A program made the translations under genes and the position numbers. A DNA stretch of 64,000 bases from Crossiella cryophila (GTDB lineage: Bacteria > Actinomycetota > Actinomycetes > Mycobacteriales > Pseudonocardiaceae): positions 4,055,501 to 4,119,500 of the forward strand of contig NZ_JACHMH010000001.1 of NCBI RefSeq assembly GCF_014204915.1, in the 5' to 3' direction. Position 1 is the stretch's first letter, and every line of letters starts with the position of its first letter. The notes below the pieces were generated by a model. It saw only the letters and a list, made by a program, of their open reading frames with translations. It did not search any database and had not been told where the DNA came from. This document shows positions 3,023 through 57,285 of the stretch, piece after piece.

Positions 3023-3766
3023 TCAACCGCGGTCAAGGAAAGCCTGCCGGGCCTCATCGGCCGCCCCGGTCAGGTTCAGCTCGAAGGTGAACCCCTGCTC
3101 GTAGCGGTAACTCCGGTGCACCGGCTGCGGATCGATGCCGTTGATCGCCTCCTTGGCCCGCCGGATCACCCGCGGATCCTTGGCCGCGATCTCCCGCGCC
3201 ACCACCAGGGCCGCCTCGTCCAGTTCGGCCCTCGGCACCACCCGGTACACCGACCCGTGGTGCAGCAACGCCCGCGCGTCGATCCGCGAGGCGGTGAAGT
3301 ACAAGGCCCGCATCAGGTGCTGCGGCACCAGCCGCGCCAGGTGCGTCGCGGCCCCCAGCGCCCCGCGATCCACCTCCGGCAACCCGAAACTCGCGTCCTC
3401 GGCCGCCACCACGATGTCCGCGTTGCCCACCAGGCCGATCCCACCGCCCAGGCAGAACCCCTGCACCGCCACCACCACCGGCACCGGACAGTCGTAGACC
3501 GCGCCGAAGGCCGCCGCGCACCCCCGGTTCACCCCGATGATCGCCGCCCGGTCCGGATCGGCCTGGAGTTCCTTGAGATCCACGCCCGCGCAGAACCCGC
3601 GCCCCTCCGCGCGCAGCACCAGCACGTGCGTTGCCGGGTCCCGGCCCGCCTCGGTGATGGTGTCGGCCAGGTCGTGCCAAGCCTGCGCGGGCAACGCGTT
3701 GACCGGCGGAAAGTCCAGTGTCACAACGGATATCGAGGTCTCGGCCGCGTTCCGGGTGATGCCCAT
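3023..3766 (-). CDS. echA20: EchA20, crotonase-fold hydrolase opening steroid ring D
   Basis: A 247-residue crotonase-fold protein, the same length as M. tuberculosis EchA20 as I recall it. Signature regions are FPPVNALPAQAWHDLAD, the oxyanion loop RAEGRGFCAGVDLKEL, the second oxyanion segment GFCLGGGIGLVGNADIVVA, PEVDRGALGAATHLARLVPQHLMR and the C-terminal SYRYEQGFTFELNLTG. EchA20 hydrolyses ring D of the HIP-derived CoA thioester ahead of IpdAB. ATG 3766 aligns with the family start; upstream in-frame ATG 3781 is possible but overlaps the intergenic operator. It is the first gene of the minus-strand ipd operon, divergent from ipdF. Confidence 0.93.
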   Translation of the reverse strand: MGITRNAAETSISVVTLDFPPVNALPAQAWHDLADTITEAGRDPATHVLVLRAEGRGFCAGVDLKELQADPDRAAIIGVNRGCAAAFGAVYDCPVPVVVAVQGFCLGGGIGLVGNADIVVAAEDASFGLPEVDRGALGAATHLARLVPQHLMRALYFTASRIDARALLHHGSVYRVVPRAELDEAALVVAREIAAKDPRVIRRAKEAINGIDPQPVHRSYRYEQGFTFELNLTGAADEARQAFLDRG

Positions 3767-4622: not shown

Positions 4623-5527
4623 CCCCGCTGTGCCACAACCGCGTCGTCATCATCACCGGCGCGGGCCGCGGCCTGGGGCGCGCGCACGCACTCGCCTTCG
4701 CCGAGGCAGGCGCCAGGGTGGTGGTCAACGACGCCGGGGTCTCGCTCAACGGACTGGGCGCCGACACCAGCCCGGCCCAGTCCGTGGTCAACGAGATCCT
4801 CGCCCTCGGCGGGCAGGCGGTGGCCAACACCGAGGACATCGCCGACTGGCAGGGCGCGCTGCGACTGGTCCGATCGGCGGTGGAATCCTTCGGTCAGTTG
4901 GACGTGCTGGTGAACAACGCGGGCTTCCTGCGTGACCGGATGCTGGTCAACATGGAGGAACACGAGTGGGACGCGGTGATCCGGGTCCACCTCAAGGGCC
5001 ACATGGCCCCACTGCGGCACGCGGCGGCCTACTGGCGCTCCGAACACCGGGCGGGCAGGCCCATCCAGGCCAGGGTGATCAACACCAGCTCCGGGGCGGG
5101 GTTACTGGGCAGCGTCGGCCAGGGCAACTATTCCGCGGCGAAGGCCGGGATCGCCGGGCTGACCACGGTCGCGGCGGCCGAACTCGCCCGGTACGGGGTC
5201 ACGGTGAACGCGATCGCCCCGGCCGCCCGGACCCGGATGACCGAGCTGGCCTTCGCCGAAACCATGGCCGCGCCAACGGAAACCGAGTTCGACGCGATGG
5301 CGCCGGAGAACGTCTCACCGCTGGTGGTGTGGTTGGGAAGCGAGCAGTCCGGCGACGTGACGGGCCGGATGTTCGAGGTCGAGGGCGGGCGGATCAGCAT
5401 CGCGGACGGCTGGCGGCACGGCCCGTTCATCGACCGCGAATCCCGCTGGCCCCTCGGCGAGGTCGGCGACGCGGTCAAACGCCTCCTGGCCGCCACCCCA
5501 CCACCAACCCCGGCCTACGGCACCTAG
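4619..5527 (+). CDS. SDR oxidoreductase (Rv3548c-like) of the ring C/D block
   Basis: A 302-residue short-chain dehydrogenase resembling the N-terminal dehydrogenase of peroxisomal multifunctional enzyme type 2. It shows the cofactor loop TGAGRGLGRAHAL, NNAGFLRDRML, INTSSGAGLLGSVGQGNYSAAK (catalytic Ser, Tyr and Lys) and a C-terminal tail beyond the normal SDR core. Homologues in mycobacteria sit in the KstR2 regulon next to the ipd genes. The substrate is probably a 3-hydroxyacyl-CoA from ring degradation, but this is not proven by sequence. ATG 4619 overlaps the ipdF stop. Its last ~20 codons are rich in C and A, and repeat array B begins at its stop codon. Confidence 0.85.
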   Translation: MTPLCHNRVVIITGAGRGLGRAHALAFAEAGARVVVNDAGVSLNGLGADTSPAQSVVNEILALGGQAVANTEDIADWQGALRLVRSAVESFGQLDVLVNNAGFLRDRMLVNMEEHEWDAVIRVHLKGHMAPLRHAAAYWRSEHRAGRPIQARVINTSSGAGLLGSVGQGNYSAAKAGIAGLTTVAAAELARYGVTVNAIAPAARTRMTELAFAETMAAPTETEFDAMAPENVSPLVVWLGSEQSGDVTGRMFEVEGGRISIADGWRHGPFIDRESRWPLGEVGDAVKRLLAATPPPTPAYGT

Positions 5528-5651
5528 TGTTGGCCGTTCTCGTACGGTGTGTTGGCCGAACTGGACGGTGTGTTGGCTGTTGTGGGCGGTGTGTTGGCGG
5601 AGTGGGTGTACCAGTTCGGCCAAGACTGTGTACGAGAACGGCCAACACGCC
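5525..5651. repeat. 22-bp repeat array B
   Basis: The array starts at the stop codon of the upstream SDR: four forward units with cores TTCTCGTAC, AACTGGAC, TTGTGGGC and GAGTGGGTGTAC, then two reversed units. The right 43 nt (5605-5647) are the inverse of 278-320 in array A with one mismatch, so the ipd/SDR block is bracketed by an inverted repeat. It lies between two convergent genes. Confidence 0.85.
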
Positions 5652-5660
5652 GGTGGGTCC

Positions 5661-14803: not shown

Positions 14804-15855
14804 CAGTCCTCGCCCCCCATGACGCACACCAGATTCTGTTGCAGGCACGGGCCACTGGTCGCGTGCGCCAGCACCCGGTCCGCGGTGCCGGTGTGGATGT
14901 GCCTTGCCGCCAAACCGATCCGGGCCAGTCCGGCGGCGAACATCGGATTGCCCGCGAGCACACCGCCGGAGGGGTTGATCCTGGCCTCGTCGAGGCCGAG
15001 TTGTTGGCGGAGCAGGATTTCCTGGTGGGTGAACGGCGCGTGCAACTCGGCAACCTGCACGCCGTCGCTGCCCGCCGCGCGCGCCGCGGCGACCGCGGAG
15101 GGGACGGCGGTGAGGTCGCGGGCGCCGAGCTGGCCGCTGTCGATCCGGTGTTCCAGGCCGGTGATCCACGCCGGGCGCGGGCACAGTTCGCGGGCCCGGT
15201 CCCCGGCGGCCAGGACCACCACCGCGGCGCCGTCGCTGATCGGCGCGCAGTCGTGCGCCCGCAACGGATCCGCGAGGTAGGGCTGGTCCAGGAGTTCCTC
15301 GATCGTTGGCGTGCCAATGAGTTGCGCCTCGGGGTTGTCCCGCGCGTCGGCCCGGGAACGCGCGGCGACCTCGGCCATCGCGCGTTCGCTCCACCGGCCC
15401 TGGGCCATACCGAGGCGGGCCTGCAACCCGGCGATGCTCACCGAGTCCGGCCACAGCGGGGTCATCAGGTACGGATCCAGTTGCAGGGCAAGCACTCGGC
15501 GCAGTTCACCGGCGGAGGACTTGCCGAAGCCGTACACCAGCGCGACATCCACCTCGCCCAGCTTGAGCCGCACCCACGCCTCGTACAGCGCCCAGGCCGC
15601 GTCCATCTCCACGTGTGATTCGCTGATCGGCGGGAACGCGCCGATCGCGTCCACCGCGGAGACGAAGGAGAACGCCCGCCCGGCCAGGTAGTCCGATGAC
15701 CCCGAGCACCAGAACCCGATGTCCTGTTTGGACAGTCCGGTGTCCAGGTAGACCTGCTGGAACAGTGGTACGAGCAGTTCGACCCCGTTGCCGGACGCCG
15801 AAGTCCGGCGCACGGCCGGGGACTGGGCGAATCCGACGACGGCGACCTCCGGCAC
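14803..15855 (-). CDS. ltp4: Ltp4-like thiolase-fold sterol-CoA lyase subunit
   Basis: A 350-residue SCP-x thiolase-like protein, matching Rv3522 in length and position. Visible blocks are VAVVGFAQSPAVRRT, FWCSGSSDYLAGRAFSFVSAVDAIGAFPPISESHVEMDAAWAL, CAPISDGAAVVVLAAGDRAR and RINPSGGVLAGNPMFAAGLARIG. It is thought to pair with Ltp3 and a DUF35 protein in retro-aldol removal of branched side-chain carbons; exact pairing here is inference. It lies 25 bp downstream of the DUF35 gene and overlaps ltp3 (ATG over TGA). Confidence 0.85.
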   Translation of the reverse strand: MPEVAVVGFAQSPAVRRTSASGNGVELLVPLFQQVYLDTGLSKQDIGFWCSGSSDYLAGRAFSFVSAVDAIGAFPPISESHVEMDAAWALYEAWVRLKLGEVDVALVYGFGKSSAGELRRVLALQLDPYLMTPLWPDSVSIAGLQARLGMAQGRWSERAMAEVAARSRADARDNPEAQLIGTPTIEELLDQPYLADPLRAHDCAPISDGAAVVVLAAGDRARELCPRPAWITGLEHRIDSGQLGARDLTAVPSAVAAARAAGSDGVQVAELHAPFTHQEILLRQQLGLDEARINPSGGVLAGNPMFAAGLARIGLAARHIHTGTADRVLAHATSGPCLQQNLVCVMGGED

Positions 15856-20025: not shown

Positions 20026-20302
20026 TGTGGGGCAAGAGCGACAGTCAAGGGCGTCCTCGCCGGACGGGCAGAAATCAAAGGATGGGGGGAGAAAATCAAG
20101 AGCAAAGACGCAGTGCTCGTACGGTCCCCCATCCCCGTCAGCCCTCCGATACCAAACCACATCCCGGGCAAGCGGCCAGTCGCGTTTGTGTTGACTCGGC
20201 GGCGGATTGTGTTGAAGGCCGCTTGCCCGGGATGCGGTGTGTCCTCTCCAGGCTGACGGGGATGGGGAACCGCTCAGGAGATGTTTGAAAAGCCACCCCG
20301 GC
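20026..20302 (-). repeat. Long-hairpin element copy 1 (candidate structured RNA)
   Basis: Read on the minus strand. The outer stem pairs 20127-20144 with 20250-20267 (CCCCATCCCCGTCAGCC arm), then come internal loops of 11 and 11 nt, an inner stem pairing 20156-20177 with 20217-20238, and a 39-nt loop. Its two arm mismatches are C.A or A.C on the plus strand but G.U on the minus strand. Flanks shared with the other copies are GGCTTTTCAAACATC on the 5' side and TTTGATTTCTGCCCGTCCGG on the 3' side. It lies between convergent genes, transcript-sense downstream of echA19. Confidence 0.75.
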
Positions 20303-20434: not shown

Positions 20435-20615
20435 CACAACGGCCAACATGGTGTCCCACTTCGGCCAACACACCGTCCACAACGGCCAACACGCCGTCCC
20501 ATAACGGCCAACACGCGCGGAGGGGGTTGAACCCCAACCCTCTCCCGGCGTGTTGGCCGTTGTCGTACCGTGTGTTGGCCGTTCTTGTACGCCGAGTTGG
20601 CACTTGTCGTACGCC
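20435..20615. repeat. 22-bp repeat array C1
   Basis: Three or four reversed units (cores GTGTCCCACTTC, CGTCCACAAC, CGTCCCATAAC) at 20435-20516 are followed by three forward units at 20548-20615 (cores TTGTCGTAC, TTCTTGTAC, ACTTGTCGTAC). Reverse-then-forward order makes a large potential hairpin around the GGGGTTGAACCCC segment near 20524-20536. Confidence 0.8.
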
Positions 20616-20831: not shown

Positions 20832-20957
20832 GCAACGGCCAACATGCCGTACCAAAGCGGCCAACACCCCGTACCAAAGCGGCCAACACGCGGGCTGGGG
20901 GTTCAAGCTCTCGGCGTGTTGGCCGTTCTGGGACGGTGTGTTGGCCGTTGTGGGACA
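20832..20957. repeat. 22-bp repeat array C2
   Basis: Three reversed units (cores GTACCAAAGC) at 20832-20890 and two forward units (TTCTGGGAC and TTGTGGGAC) at 20914-20957. It ends 13 bp before the 3' end of echA19. Confidence 0.8.
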
Positions 20958-20969
20958 GACGGGGGCGGT

Positions 20970-28335: not shown

Positions 28336-28622
28336 GTTGTTGTGGGGCACGAGCGACAGTCAAGGGCGTCCTCGCCGGACGGGCAGAAATCAAAGGATGG
28401 GGGGGAAAGTCAAAGGCAGAGATGAAGAGCAGTGCTCGTACGGTTCCCCCATCCCCGTCAGCCTTCCGATACCAAACCACATCCCAGCCAGCGACCGCCG
28501 TCACGTTGGGTTGGCCGGGCGGCGGTTTGTGTTGCAGCGGCCGCTGGCTGGGATGTGGTGTGTCCTCTCCAGGCTGACGGGGATGGGGGAACCGCTCGGG
28601 GATGTTTGAAAAGCCACCCCGT
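28336..28622 (-). repeat. Long-hairpin element copy 2 (candidate structured RNA)
   Basis: Read on the minus strand. The perfect 18-bp outer stem pairs 28447-28464 with 28571-28588. The inner stem pairs 28476-28500 with 28535-28559 and has a different sequence from copy 1 (CCCAGCCAGCG in place of CCCGGGCAAGCG) yet still pairs. Its two arm mismatches (at 28494 and 28499) are G.U on the minus strand. The loop keeps the CCGCCGCC core. A degenerate 22-bp unit (GTGTTGGTTGTTGTGGGGCA) abuts it at 28330. It lies between the convergent GH2 and fadE27 genes. Confidence 0.75.
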
Positions 28623-28773: not shown

Positions 28774-28945
28774 CACAACGGCCAACGTGCCGTACCACAA
28801 CGGCCAACACCCGGTACGAGAACGGCCAACACGCCGGCGGGGTTTCAACCTCCCGGAGTGTTGGCCGTTCTGGGACGGTGTGTTGGCCGTACTTGTACCG
28901 CGTGTTGGCCGTTCTTGTACGCCTGGTTGGCTGTTGTGGGACGCG
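28774..28945. repeat. 22-bp repeat array D1
   Basis: Three reversed units (28774-28833; cores GTACCACAAC and GTACGAGAAC) are followed by four forward units (28856-28945; cores TTCTGGGAC, TACTTGTAC, TTCTTGTAC, TTGTGGGAC). Confidence 0.8.
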
Positions 28946-40754: not shown

Positions 40755-41917
40755 CCCACCGCAGCACCACCGGCCGCAGCCTCACCAACATGCTTGCCCT
40801 GGCCTGCGTGATCGCGCTACTGCTGAGCGCCTCGCTGGTGTGGTGGCAGGGCGGTTCCGGCGGCCCGTCGATCACCGCGTTCTTCGCCCGCACCGTCGGG
40901 CTGTACCCGGGCTCGGAGGTGCGGGTGCTCGGCGTGCCGGTCGGGCGGGTGCGTGAGGTGACCCCCGAGGGCGAGCGGGTCCGGGTGCGGTTCGAGGTGG
41001 ACCGCGGCATCCGGATCCCGGCCGAGGCCAAGGCCGTGGTGATCGCGCCCAGCCTGGTCAGTGACCGGTACCTGCAACTCACCCCCGCCTACGAGACCGG
41101 CCCGGAAATGGCCGGTGGCGCGGAGATCCCGTTGACCCGCACCATGATCCCGGTCGAACTGGACGAACTGCTCGGCGACGTCGGCGAGCTGAGCCGGGCA
41201 CTGGGACCGGACGGGGCGAACAAGAACGGCGCCCTCTCCGGCCTGCTGGACACCGCGGCGGCCAACCTCAAGGGCAACGGCGCCGCGCTCAACGCCACCG
41301 TCAAGGACCTGGCCGCCGCCGCGGAGACCCTCAACCGATCCCGCAAGGACCTCTTCGCCACCGTCGACGGCCTGCGCCAGTTCACCGCCGCCCTGGTCGC
41401 CTCGGACGGCCAGCTGCGCGCCTTCAACAACCGGCTCGCCTCGGTCAGCGGCCACCTCGCCGCGGAACGGGAAACCCTCGGCGCGGCCTTGCAGGGACTG
41501 GCCGGGGCGATGATCGACGTCAAGGAGTTCATCACCGCCAACCAGGACCGGCTCAAGTCCACAGTGGACAAACTGGCCAGCGTCACCAAGGTCCTGGTCG
41601 ACCAGCGGGCCGCACTGGCCGAGGTCCTCGACGTGGCCCCGCTGGCCGCCACCAACTACCTCAACAGCTACGACGCCGCCTCCGGCACCTTCGCCGTACG
41701 CGGCGCGATCAACGAGCTGACCTACCCGCCGGTGCTCCTGCTGTGCCGGGTCATCCAGGCCGGAACCCCAAAACAACTCCCCAAACTGCTAGGCGACGCC
41801 TGCGCCCAACTCGCCCCCCTACTGGACGGCGTCCTCAAGCTCCCCAGCCCAGCCGAAATCCTCGCCAGCCTGCAACAAGGCCACCTCCCCAAGCTCCCGC
41901 TCCTAGGCGGTCGCTAA
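40751..41917 (+). CDS. mce4D: Mce4D
   Basis: A 388-residue Mce protein with N-terminal helix LALACVIALLLSASLVW, the MCE domain (TVGLYPGSEVRVLGVPVGRVREV..LVSDRYLQLTPAY) and a long helical region. The last ~45 codons shift to C/A-rich third positions (CTA, AAA, CCC). Its TAA shares a base with an ATG (TAATG) that is the ancestral start of mce4E, beside repeat array E. Confidence 0.93.
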   Translation: MTHRSTTGRSLTNMLALACVIALLLSASLVWWQGGSGGPSITAFFARTVGLYPGSEVRVLGVPVGRVREVTPEGERVRVRFEVDRGIRIPAEAKAVVIAPSLVSDRYLQLTPAYETGPEMAGGAEIPLTRTMIPVELDELLGDVGELSRALGPDGANKNGALSGLLDTAAANLKGNGAALNATVKDLAAAAETLNRSRKDLFATVDGLRQFTAALVASDGQLRAFNNRLASVSGHLAAERETLGAALQGLAGAMIDVKEFITANQDRLKSTVDKLASVTKVLVDQRAALAEVLDVAPLAATNYLNSYDAASGTFAVRGAINELTYPPVLLLCRVIQAGTPKQLPKLLGDACAQLAPLLDGVLKLPSPAEILASLQQGHLPKLPLLGGR

Positions 41918-43227
41918 TGCCCCCCACCAGAGTGTTGGCCGTTGTCGTACGCAGTGTTGGCCGTTGTCGTACGCCACGTTGGCCGTTGCGGACAGGCCGC
42001 CGGACAGCGCCGTCCGAGAACAGCCAACACACCGTACGAGAACGGCCAACACACCGTCCCACTTCGGCCAACACACGGTACGAGAACGGCCAACACTCGG
42101 GGTGGGGGGTGTTGGGGGTGGTGATGTTGTTGGGTGGGTGTACTGGGGTGTATGGGGTGCCGTTGCCTGGTGGGGCGGATCTGGGTGACGTGCCGTACCG
42201 GATCACTGTGCGGTTCGCGGACGTGCTGGATCTGGTGCCGCAGGCCGGGGTCAAGGTGAACGATGTCGCGGTGGGGCGGGTGGAGGAGATCAGGCTCGGT
42301 GCGGACTACGCGACCGCGGAGGTGCGGCTCGCGGTCAACGGGGCGGTGCGGTTGCCGGGCAACGCGCTGGCACGGCTGCGGCAGTCGAGTTTGCTGGGGG
42401 AGAAGTTCGTTGAGCTGGCCGCGCCCAAGGAACCCGTGGGGCAGCTTGCCGAGGGTGCGGTGATCCCGGTGGATCGGACCAACCGCAGCACCGAGATCGA
42501 GGAGGTGCTGGGGGCGCTGTCCCTGCTGCTCAACGGTGGCGGGGTCGGGCAGCTGCGGACGATCACGACTGAGCTGGACGCGGCACTGGCCGGGAATGAG
42601 GCCAGGCTGCGCGGGTTGCTGTCCACTGTGGACAAGGTGGTGGCCGACCTTGACGGGCAGCGGGTGGGGATCACCAGGGCCATCGACTCGATCAGCCGGT
42701 TGTCGACGACGCTGGTCGCGCAGCGGCACAACCTGACCACCGCGCTGGACCACCTGGCGCCGGGGCTCGCGGTGCTCAACACCCAGCGGGACCAGCTGGT
42801 GGAGATGTTGCGGGCACTGGACAAACTCGCGGTCACCGCCACCGACACCGTGCGCCGCAGCTCGACCAACCTGGTCGCCGACCTGAAACTGCTCGAACCC
42901 GTGCTGCGCAAGATCGCCGAGGCCGGCGAGAACCTGCCCAAGTCGCTGGAGATCCTGGTCAGCTTCCCGTTCACCGACCAGACCCTGCAAACCCTCCGCG
43001 GCGACTACGTCAACGCGGATGTGAAGCTGGACCTGGATCTGAGTTCGATCCTGGACAACCTCACCCGCTCCAACCAGCCCATCATCCAGCCACCCGATCC
43101 ACGAAAGCCCCCGGCTGAGCCGCTGCTGCCCGGTGCGCCTTCGGGGACGCCCAAACCGCCCGAGCAGCCCGGTCTGCTGGGTGGGCTCGGCGGGTTGCTG
43201 CACACGATCCTGGGTGGTCGGCGATGA
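41917..43227 (+). CDS. mce4E: Mce4E lipoprotein interrupted in its signal peptide by a repeat array
   Basis: An Mce lipoprotein. The MCE domain (FADVLDLVPQAGVKVNDVAVGRVEEIRLG..LLGEKFVELAAP) and helical region are normal. From ATG 41917 (overlapping the mce4D stop) the frame reads MPPTRV, then 59 codons derived from array E, then VLGVVMLLGGCTG. Without the array the leader would be MPPTRVLGVVMLLGGC, a standard lipobox with Cys16; as written the cysteine is residue 75. The frame stays open through the array. Initiation could instead occur at GTG 42109, GTG 42118 or ATG 42124, but those leaders lack a positive N-terminus. Confidence 0.85.
   Translation: MPPTRVLAVVVRSVGRCRTPRWPLRTGRRTAPSENSQHTVRERPTHRPTSANTRYENGQHSGWGVLGVVMLLGGCTGVYGVPLPGGADLGDVPYRITVRFADVLDLVPQAGVKVNDVAVGRVEEIRLGADYATAEVRLAVNGAVRLPGNALARLRQSSLLGEKFVELAAPKEPVGQLAEGAVIPVDRTNRSTEIEEVLGALSLLLNGGGVGQLRTITTELDAALAGNEARLRGLLSTVDKVVADLDGQRVGITRAIDSISRLSTTLVAQRHNLTTALDHLAPGLAVLNTQRDQLVEMLRALDKLAVTATDTVRRSSTNLVADLKLLEPVLRKIAEAGENLPKSLEILVSFPFTDQTLQTLRGDYVNADVKLDLDLSSILDNLTRSNQPIIQPPDPRKPPAEPLLPGAPSGTPKPPEQPGLLGGLGGLLHTILGGRR
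41932..42097. repeat. 22-bp repeat array E, inside the 5' end of mce4E
   Basis: Three forward units (cores TTGTCGTAC, TTGTCGTAC, TTGCGGAC) then four reversed units (CGTCCGAGAAC, CGTACGAGAAC, CGTCCCACTTC, GGTACGAGAAC). GTGTTGG occurs at both edges of the insertion (41932-41938 and 42109-42115), 177 bp apart and in the same reading frame. Confidence 0.85.
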
Positions 43228-47975: not shown

Positions 47976-48012
47976 CTAGGTCAACGGTTTCTTTGCCGGG
48001 GCTTGTCGTGGC

Positions 48013-48120
48013 GGGTTGCGTTGCGCAGCCACAAGATCAAGAGCTGCGGGCGGCTTTGGCGGACGGGCGGGAATCAAAGGAAGGGGAACCGCTCGGGGAT
48101 GTTCGAGAAGCCGGTCCGGC
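48013..48120 (-). repeat. Remnant of the long-hairpin element (hairpin missing)
   Basis: On the minus strand the element 5' flank (GGCTTCTCGAACATCCCCGAG..) joins directly to the 3' flank (TTTGATTCCCGCCCGTCCG..). The whole ~130-nt hairpin is absent. In intact copies GGATGGGG occurs at both edges of the hairpin, so recombination between these short direct repeats could have removed it. Confidence 0.6.
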
Positions 48121-48149
48121 TGTCTGTTCGCTGGGCTTCGTCCTTCCGC

Positions 48150-56415: not shown

Positions 56416-56486
56416 CGTGTTGGCCGTTCTTGTACGGAGTGTTGGCCGTTATGGGACGGTGTGTTGGCCGTTCTTGTACGCCTTGG
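56416..56486 (+). repeat. 22-bp repeat array F
   Basis: Three head-to-tail forward units with an exact 22-bp period: cores TTCTTGTAC, TTATGGGAC, TTCTTGTAC. This is the cleanest example of the unit. It starts 18 bp after the TetR stop and is followed by a CGGGCGAAGCCCGG mini-hairpin at 56496. Confidence 0.85.
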
Positions 56487-56525
56487 GCAACTACGACCGG
56501 GCGAAGCCCGGAGAACAGGCGGCCG

Positions 56526-56812
56526 GGGTGGCTTTTCAAACCCCACCTGAGCGGTTCCCCCATCCCCGTCAGCCTGGAGAGGACACACCACATCCCGGGT
56601 GCGCAGACCGCAACCTGCCGCCGCCCTAGCCTGCCAACCGCAACGGTCTGCGTGCCCGGGATGTGGTTTGGTATCGGAAGGCTGACGGGGATGGGGGAAC
56701 CGTACGAGCACTGCTCTTTGCCCTTGTTCTTGTCTTTGACTTTCCCCCCCATCCTTTGATTTCTGCCCGTCCGGCGAGGACGATCTTGATCTTGACTGTC
56801 GTTCGGGTACCT
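56526..56812 (+). repeat. Long-hairpin element copy 3 (candidate structured RNA)
   Basis: Read on the plus strand. The perfect 18-bp outer stem pairs 56558-56575 with 56679-56696; 11-nt internal loops (GGAGAGGACAC and TTGGTATCGGA); a 24-bp inner stem pairs 56587-56610 with 56644-56667. Its two non-Watson-Crick pairs, at 56600 and 56601, are U.G and G.U on this strand. The inner stem sequence (GGGTGCGCAGACCG) differs from copies 1 and 2. Loop core TGCCGCCGCC. The 3' flank TTTGATTTCTGCCCGTCCGG is conserved. It meets copy 4 tail to tail. Confidence 0.75.
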
Positions 56813-56817
56813 CAGCA

Positions 56818-57135
56818 ACAGAGGCCAACAACGCAAAGATCAAGAGCGAAAAAGATGGCCTCGCCGGCCGGGCAGACCACCGGAGGGGGGAGGGCAGATC
56901 AAGAACCGGCATGAGCAGGTTGCGGGGCGGGGTTTGTGCTGCCGGGGCCTGAACCAGCGTGGCTCCGAGGGCTCGCGTGTTCTCCGCACGGCCTTCCGCA
57001 AGCCAACCACACCTCACCGAGCGGCCCCCGTTGCGGATTCGTGGGCAGGCGGCGGCAGGTTGCAGGGGCCACTCGGCGAGGCGCGGTCAGCAAGCTCCAG
57101 GCCGTACGGAGAACACGCGAGACCCCTCGTCGTGG
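56818..57135 (-). repeat. Long-hairpin element copy 4, divergent (candidate structured RNA)
   Basis: Read on the minus strand. The outer stem pairs 56972-56993 with 57100-57121 (22 bp, one G.U), an 8x8 internal loop follows (TGGAGCTT and TTGCGGAA), then a 27-bp inner stem pairs 57002-57028 with 57065-57091 with six G.U pairs. The stem sequences are unrelated to copies 1-3, but the internal-loop bases (CCTGGAG on one side, CGGAAGGC on the other), the loop (CAACCTGCCGCCGCC) and the 3' flank (CTCCCCCCTCC..TCTGCCCG) are shared. Confidence 0.7.
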
Positions 57136-57175: not shown

Positions 57176-57285
57176 ACAACAACGGCCAACGACCCGTCCC
57201 ACAACGGCCAACACGGCGTACAAGAACGGCCAACACTCCGTACGACAACGGCCAACACGCTGTCCCATAACGGCAAACACTCGGA
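57176..57285 (-). repeat. 22-bp repeat array G
   Basis: Five head-to-tail units, all in minus orientation (plus-strand cores CGTCCCACAAC, CGTACAAGAAC, CGTACGACAAC, TGTCCCATAAC). It precedes copy 4 of the hairpin element in transcript sense. Confidence 0.85.

Follow-up and report, generated by a model that had tools for sequence, protein, structure and literature searches.

Dispersed hairpin-forming repeats of several kinds are known from bacterial genomes. YPAL, ERIC and NEMIS/Correia are hairpin-forming miniature elements of Yersinia, enterobacteria and Neisseria, for which effects on the stability of upstream mRNA or cutting by RNase III have been proposed (PMC2229807, as extracted). REP elements are intergenic palindromes that occur mainly between codirectional and convergent genes and form inverted pairs; roles in termination and mRNA stabilisation have been hypothesised for them (extract of PMC3733652). 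REPINs are a related known element class (PMC3116915, as extracted). Terminators, finally, evolve by compensatory change (extract of PMC5381666).

The family considered here comes from Crossiella cryophila and is apparently new. No description of it was found in Rfam or in the extracts of the literature that were searched, and one may exist. Its members are like YPAL, ERIC and NEMIS in being small dispersed intergenic repeats with a predicted long RNA hairpin and with both filled and empty sites (compare the extract of PMC2229807). With REP, BIME and REPIN elements they share palindromes spread between genes and inverted pairs, and with bidirectional intrinsic terminators they share GC hairpins of a terminator-like kind with U-rich runs at convergent gene ends.

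Parts and copies of the unit

The window is the whole 64-kb stretch of C. cryophila DNA that was analysed. A preliminary description placed four long hairpins in it, and all four are present, on the strands claimed and with ends within about 5 nt of those claimed. The hairpin described there is one part of a larger unit, which also includes a small downstream hairpin and, at 37 of 64 loci, is faced by a second unit. The core of the unit starts at a GGGGTGGCTTTTC box. The parts found in the window are as follows.

56525..56544, + strand: conserved box GGGGTGGCTTTTCAAACCCC directly 5' of hairpin A, where the conserved core begins
56553..56701, + strand: long hairpin of type A
56768..56782, + strand: small terminator-like hairpin of unit A, CGTCC/GGACG stem of 5 bp, GGCGA loop
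56783-56797, + strand: T-rich run after the small hairpin of unit A
56972..57121, - strand: long hairpin of type B, convergent with A
56857..56869, - strand: small terminator-like hairpin of unit B, GGCC/GGCC stem of 4 bp, GGCGA loop
56856-56842, - strand: T-rich run after the small hairpin of unit B
28442..28593, - strand: single long hairpin of type A
28367..28381, - strand: terminator-like hairpin with GGCGA loop, belonging to a single A unit (locus L094)
20122..20272, - strand: single long hairpin of type A
20052..20066, - strand: terminator-like hairpin with GGCGA loop, belonging to a single A unit (locus L093)
48011..48134, - strand: apparent type A relic, in which the upstream box is joined straight to the tail, with no long hairpin and a degenerate small hairpin
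56417..56482, + strand: tandem array of a 22-nt repeat (GTGTTGGCCGTTNTNGTACGNN) from a different repeat family, adjoining the unit outside its core
57181..57280, - strand: 22-nt tandem array adjoining the unit in the opposite orientation

The long hairpin consists of two stems around a GGA/GGA internal loop and a second internal loop, and it ends in a C-rich apical loop. In 28 aligned copies the GGA/GGA loop (CCTGGAG...CGGAAGG) is conserved, as had been noted. The apical loop, also said to be alike between copies, is so for most of the CCGCCGCC stretch.

The family had been described as having four copies. Instead, intact hairpins number at least 101 in the genome that contains the window (G000, a single contig of 10.06 Mb), where they are spread over 64 loci. 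The search model was built from 28 copies and 150 of 18305 candidates were scored, so that for divergent types the count is a minimum. These hairpins score at least 136.6 bits on one strand, and matches on the opposite strand reach at most 95.2. The 64 loci comprise 37 pairs and 27 singles. Every pair is convergent (37/37), with 236-275 nt between its hairpins, and 36 of the 37 consist of an A facing a B; the remaining one has a partner of neither type. The singles are of type A in all 27 cases.

A pattern for the 5' arm of type A, with at most 3 mismatches allowed, occurs at 65 places in the genome, 64 of them in intact hairpins and one unrelated. Since nearly all of these places lie in intact hairpins, the intactness of type A is no artefact of selection by the structure model. 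The A tail together with its small hairpin occurs at 72 places, compared with 64 A units. Four of the extra tail places in G000 (L221, L222, L223 and L224) were read, along with one each from the relatives G001 (L226) and G002, and the long hairpin is missing in all six. In L221-L224 and L226 the flanking parts meet at a CCCCATCC repeat common to arm and tail, and loss of the long hairpin between these direct repeats is as expected for palindrome deletion. The GGCGA hairpin is kept at these loci, with one base changed in L226.

Stem pairing and the downstream end

Within the four window hairpins, 13 non-Watson-Crick stem positions had been claimed (2, 2, 2 and 7), with a bias to G.U on one strand. 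Over the 48 stem pairs as defined in this analysis the count is lower, at 12 (2, 1, 3 and 6), and the bias stands: 12 of 12 are G.U on the claimed strand and none is A.C. For 84 distinct G000 copies, the 48 pairs give 3789 Watson-Crick, 238 G.U, 1 A.C and 4 other cells, which are not independent because the copies are related. Counted by position, G.U occurs at 13 and A.C at 1 (sign test over positions, p = 0.0018). The outer 18 pairs, with orientation fixed by the CCTGGAG/CGGARGG motif only, contain 3 G.U and 0 A.C. Only 6 distinct arm pairs occur there among 100 hairpins, and thus most of the variety lies in the inner stem.

The strand bias was expected to persist in other genomes, and it does. 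Among 33 distinct hairpins from G001, G002 and G004 (36 hairpins, from fetched loci only) there are 71 G.U, 1 A.C, 34 other mispairs and 1472 Watson-Crick pairs. The other mispairs fall mainly at columns 33-135 and 54-114, which seem to be unpaired in the hairpin types of the relatives.

Likewise, stems differ between copies and yet pair, as first described. In the relatives the outer stems are very different in sequence and still paired, as read from folds of 36 correctly oriented alignment rows. For instance, the orthologous loci L074 (G000) and L134 (G002) have outer stems that differ by paired changes such as CAGCC/GGCTG versus CAACC/GGTTG.

Covariation was measured on 45 distinct sequences against shuffled and slid controls. 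Paired cells make up 97.5%, against 73.8% in shuffled and at most 46.8% in slid alignments; the covariation score is 0.645, against 0.208 and at most 0.104, and both sides have changed in 40 of 52 pairs. These three values are reached by 0 of 500 shuffles, a result that is not a probability, since the copies are related and the model itself guided the alignment. One of the five measures, the number of further pair types, is unremarkable (82 versus 76.2, reached by 17 of 500 shuffles). In Rfam 15, no family reaches its gathering score anywhere in the window; the best permissive matches are to miRNA precursor models (44.4 bits against a threshold of 197, and 39.6 against 90). With the G.U bias holding in relatives, covariation above controls and no Rfam family at threshold, the earlier proposal of a probable new structured RNA is supported, and with it that of selection on the structure in one strand only.

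A small hairpin with a GGCGA loop follows on the 3' side, on the same strand, in 99 of 101 hairpins of G000 and in 36 of 36 of the relatives (135/137). Its stem has three sequences, CGTCC/GGACG, GGCC/GGCC and GTCC/GGAC, all of which pair. The distance from the long to the small hairpin is 56-77 nt in A units of G000, 104-107 nt in B units of G000 and 61-117 nt in the three types of the relatives. The two G000 hairpins that lack it are the B units in L069 and L103. The next 15 nt contain a mean of 6.5 to 10 T, against a background of 2.18, and 99 of 101 G000 copies have at least 5. A small hairpin of this form, with 5 or more T among the following 15 nt, is found in 0.0008 of random 260-nt stretches from the same loci; the small-hairpin copies are homologous and represent one family, not 99 events.

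By its sequence, then, the small hairpin is like a short intrinsic terminator, and such an end on the same strand is the best evidence for the putative action of the structure in RNA. The small hairpins are short for terminators, with 4-5 bp and -4.5 to -6.9 kcal/mol. In the window, that of unit B (56857..56869) is overlapped by an alternative longer stem-loop; the longer stem that the B tail of G000 can form instead has -16.2 kcal/mol and ends at the U-run. The U-run after A is interrupted, as in ATCTTGATCTT. A generic terminator scan of the A/B composite in the window reported neither GGCGA hairpin; its one match there is a different stem-loop overlapping the B end, with 1.2 matches expected from shuffles. 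Rho-dependent termination from a C-rich tail was considered as well. The richness of the tail in C over G, which is expected for Rho, lies between the 95% and 99% background levels in B and below 95% in A, so that this candidate is partly supported and hinted at for B alone. When the RNA end is taken as 12 nt beyond the small hairpin, the predicted ends of a pair are separated by 21-51 nt, free of overlap, in all 35 of the 37 pairs that were measurable.

The family is probably a genus-restricted RNA family that forms a dispersed 3'-end or terminator cassette, with two units back to back in most loci. What can be read directly from the genomes is the strand-specific structure and its covariation, the small hairpin with its U-rich run, the placement, and presence or absence between species. 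From these we infer RNA production, termination and a role for the long hairpin. The transcript of an upstream gene on the same strand would pass the conserved box, the long hairpin and then a C/U-rich linker, and transcription would end at the small GC hairpin with its GGCGA loop and U residues, as at an intrinsic terminator. Back-to-back A and B units would close off two converging genes separately, leaving a gap of 20 to 50 nt between the predicted RNA ends. The long hairpin would most likely cap the 3' end of the RNA, either as protection from exonucleases or as a fixed site for an RNA-binding protein or RNase. One point against this reading is that termination alone requires no 150-nt hairpin.

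Distribution, placement and neighbouring repeats

Model R1 was run on 60 genomes and matched four Crossiella genomes, with one weak match in another genus (G024). Model R2 was run on 249 genomes of the family, with 12 candidates per genome scored under strict filters, and matched four Crossiella genomes, with two weak matches (G083 and G094). The weak matches (L052 in G024, L205 in G094 and L206 in G083) were taken as unrelated, with no CCTGGAG/CGGAAGG motif visible in them. They are GC-rich hairpins of great length from further genera of the family, and possibly belong to unrelated long-hairpin families. A pattern for the 3' arm had no match in viral contigs. It occurs in 36 genome-contig stretches, 32 of them from Crossiella; the other four (L163, L164, L172 and L177) failed the hairpin test, were taken as chance and were excluded from the placement count of the relatives.

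The sites themselves differ between species. The composite of the window is absent at the orthologous site in G002, G003 and G004, and in G001 only a remnant is left there, including half of a B hairpin. G001 also has an empty site at the 28.4-kb locus, with 33 nt between the aligned flanks. Other loci are shared: L074, L075, L087, L090, L091 and L112 of G000 are common to both G002 and G004, L069 and L089 are common to G004, and L076, L103, L113, L115, L117, L120 and L130 are common to G001. This comparison covered fetched loci of the relatives only, many of which matched no locus of G000. At shared loci the flanks differ by 3-17% between species and the hairpins are intact. Copies also have species-specific bases, such as GGAGCTTG in the B units of G000 and GGAGCATGC in the four G001 hairpins that were read. 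Shared loci together with species-specific bases indicate that the family persists in place and is renewed or homogenised. In the proposed mechanism, the cassettes would have spread by insertion near stop codons and been homogenised within each species.

It is possible, though doubtful, that the family is non-autonomous mobile DNA (MITE or REPIN-like) whose hairpin is recognised by a transposase as single-stranded DNA. Sites empty in some species and filled in others would suit such an element, as would a copy number that ranges from about 100 (G000) to none found (G003), with 24 hairpins counted here in G002 and 8 in G004, and copies that are alike within a species and different between species. 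The strand bias would then be G.T pairing in a DNA hairpin, where G.T pairs are also the tolerated mismatch, and placement would be a matter of insertion preference or tolerance. The shortness of the downstream hairpin fits this reading too. However, 135 of 137 copies have a terminator-like end on the hairpin's own strand, as expected of RNA and not of a DNA hairpin, and hairpins have stayed intact at several loci common to species with 3-17% flank divergence. No target-site duplication was recognised by eye at the inspected filled and empty sites, where the borders have diverged. A search for the Y1 transposase that mobilises REPs, the one transposase type searched, gave 0 matches in G002, G003 and G004, one with an inside stop in G000 and three in G001. 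Mobilisation by RAYT is unsupported, given that G002 and G004 carry hairpins without a Y1 family match.

The elements sit at gene 3' ends. In G000, the 64 element junctions are 42 convergent, 21 codirectional and 1 divergent (41, 22 and 1 at a lower gene-score cut-off), whereas 317 neighbouring junctions without elements are 32 convergent, 220 codirectional and 65 divergent (Fisher p 4.7e-20 for convergent), with genes called by a simple finder based on hexamers. In the relatives the excess of convergent junctions is less marked, with 15 convergent, 17 codirectional and 3 divergent among 35. Of the 40 hairpins there that lie on the same strand as the upstream gene, 26 begin no more than 70 nt from the stop codon of that gene, and the upstream gene is on the other strand for 17 of 57 hairpins. 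Single hairpins between codirectional genes have the right orientation in only 8 of 11 cases, so the argument from sense orientation rests mainly on the convergent preference.

A further alternative, an improbable one, is that each copy is an independent small RNA gene, transcribed from a promoter of its own, whose product would act in trans by way of the conserved apical and internal loops. Structure, a terminator-like end of its own and conserved loop sequences would all be expected of such a gene. On the other hand, a scan of the composite for one promoter type found no sigma-70-like promoter, and the cores of the relatives often come directly after same-strand stop codons, with little room for a promoter.

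Least probable by far is an origin without structural selection, in which young palindromes were perfected by arm-to-arm conversion and G.U arose by strand-biased cytosine deamination: palindromes are correctable by template switching and copies are homogenised within a genome, but several G.U positions alternate with A-U (23-131, 38-116 and 40-114 with no G-C form seen; 5-149 and 49-105 with both forms), which C to T alone does not readily give, the G.U bias recurs in other species with different stems, and loops and tails are conserved though not palindromic.

In G000, 22-nt arrays often lie between a gene and a unit. The window holds them at the following places.

277-398, 5527-5657, 20438-20593 and 20834-20960: intergenic 22-nt tandem repeat GTGTTGGCCGTTNTNGTACGNN, arranged in inverted groups
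28777-28925, 41932-42103, 56417-56482 and 57181-57280: further sites of the 22-nt tandem repeat

The repeat occurs as 556 exact 19-mers in G000, at a nearly strict spacing of 22 nt. Double units with at most 2 mismatches number 595 in G000, 123 in G001, 171 in G002, 48 in G003 and 0 in G004. The arrays do not belong to the element, because G004 carries hairpins and has no arrays, and the orthologous pair in G002 has none next to it. They are possibly a protein-binding array. Tn7/Mu-like transposon ends have 22-bp repeats in inverted groups; such an end was rejected here, since no matching target duplication was found by eye at the inspected blocks.

Two further observations concern gene ends and starts. 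At 41917-42148, the window has a 22-nt block between two genes that in G002 and G004 overlap or abut (TGATG), so the start of the downstream gene may have changed in G000. In G001, a repeat TTGGGCCAACTGGTACGCCGG...GGCGTACCAGTTGGCCCAA, or one close to it, is found at gene ends (L195 about 15440-15540, L194 about 3340-3440), at sites where G000 has hairpin elements.

Significance and comparison with known systems

If the preferred reading, a dispersed RNA 3'-end cassette, is true, the family would add a strongly covarying member to the known bacterial RNA families, and would be a clear example of a dispersed repeat by which genes acquire transcription ends. The element offers a direct route to testing whether spreading intergenic repeats become working 3' ends. 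It also bears on the separation of converging transcription units in a GC-rich genome and on the role of long hairpins near 3' ends. An unlikely extension of this reading is a genus-specific regulon of RNA 3' ends, in which about 100 mobile cassettes provide a common protein- or nuclease-binding tail and paired non-overlapping stops. One factor that recognises the GGA/GGA loop and the C-rich apical loop could then set mRNA stability genome-wide.

The Crossiella element differs in several ways from the systems named at the outset. Compared with YPAL, ERIC and NEMIS, its stems diverge with covariation, and their strand-consistent G.U pairs may be a further difference. It frequently occurs in convergent pairs, and nearly all copies have a terminator-like hairpin of their own. 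Neither terminal repeats nor a target duplication were recognised in it, and it belongs to an actinobacterial genus.

REPs are 20-40 bp long, whereas the Crossiella hairpins measure about 150 nt and have a tail in addition. REPs with a GTAG tag are associated with RAYT transposases; in the window, neither GTAG nor CTAC occurs up to 30 nt from any of the eight hairpin bases.

Integron attC sites are arrayed with gene cassettes beside an integrase. In contrast, the Crossiella copies are dispersed over the genome and lie mostly between convergent genes.

Unlike bidirectional intrinsic terminators, the Crossiella units are homologous copies, present in dozens, with terminal stems of only 4-5 bp. 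A pair has two separate one-way ends, each predicted to lie behind a conserved structure of 150 nt.
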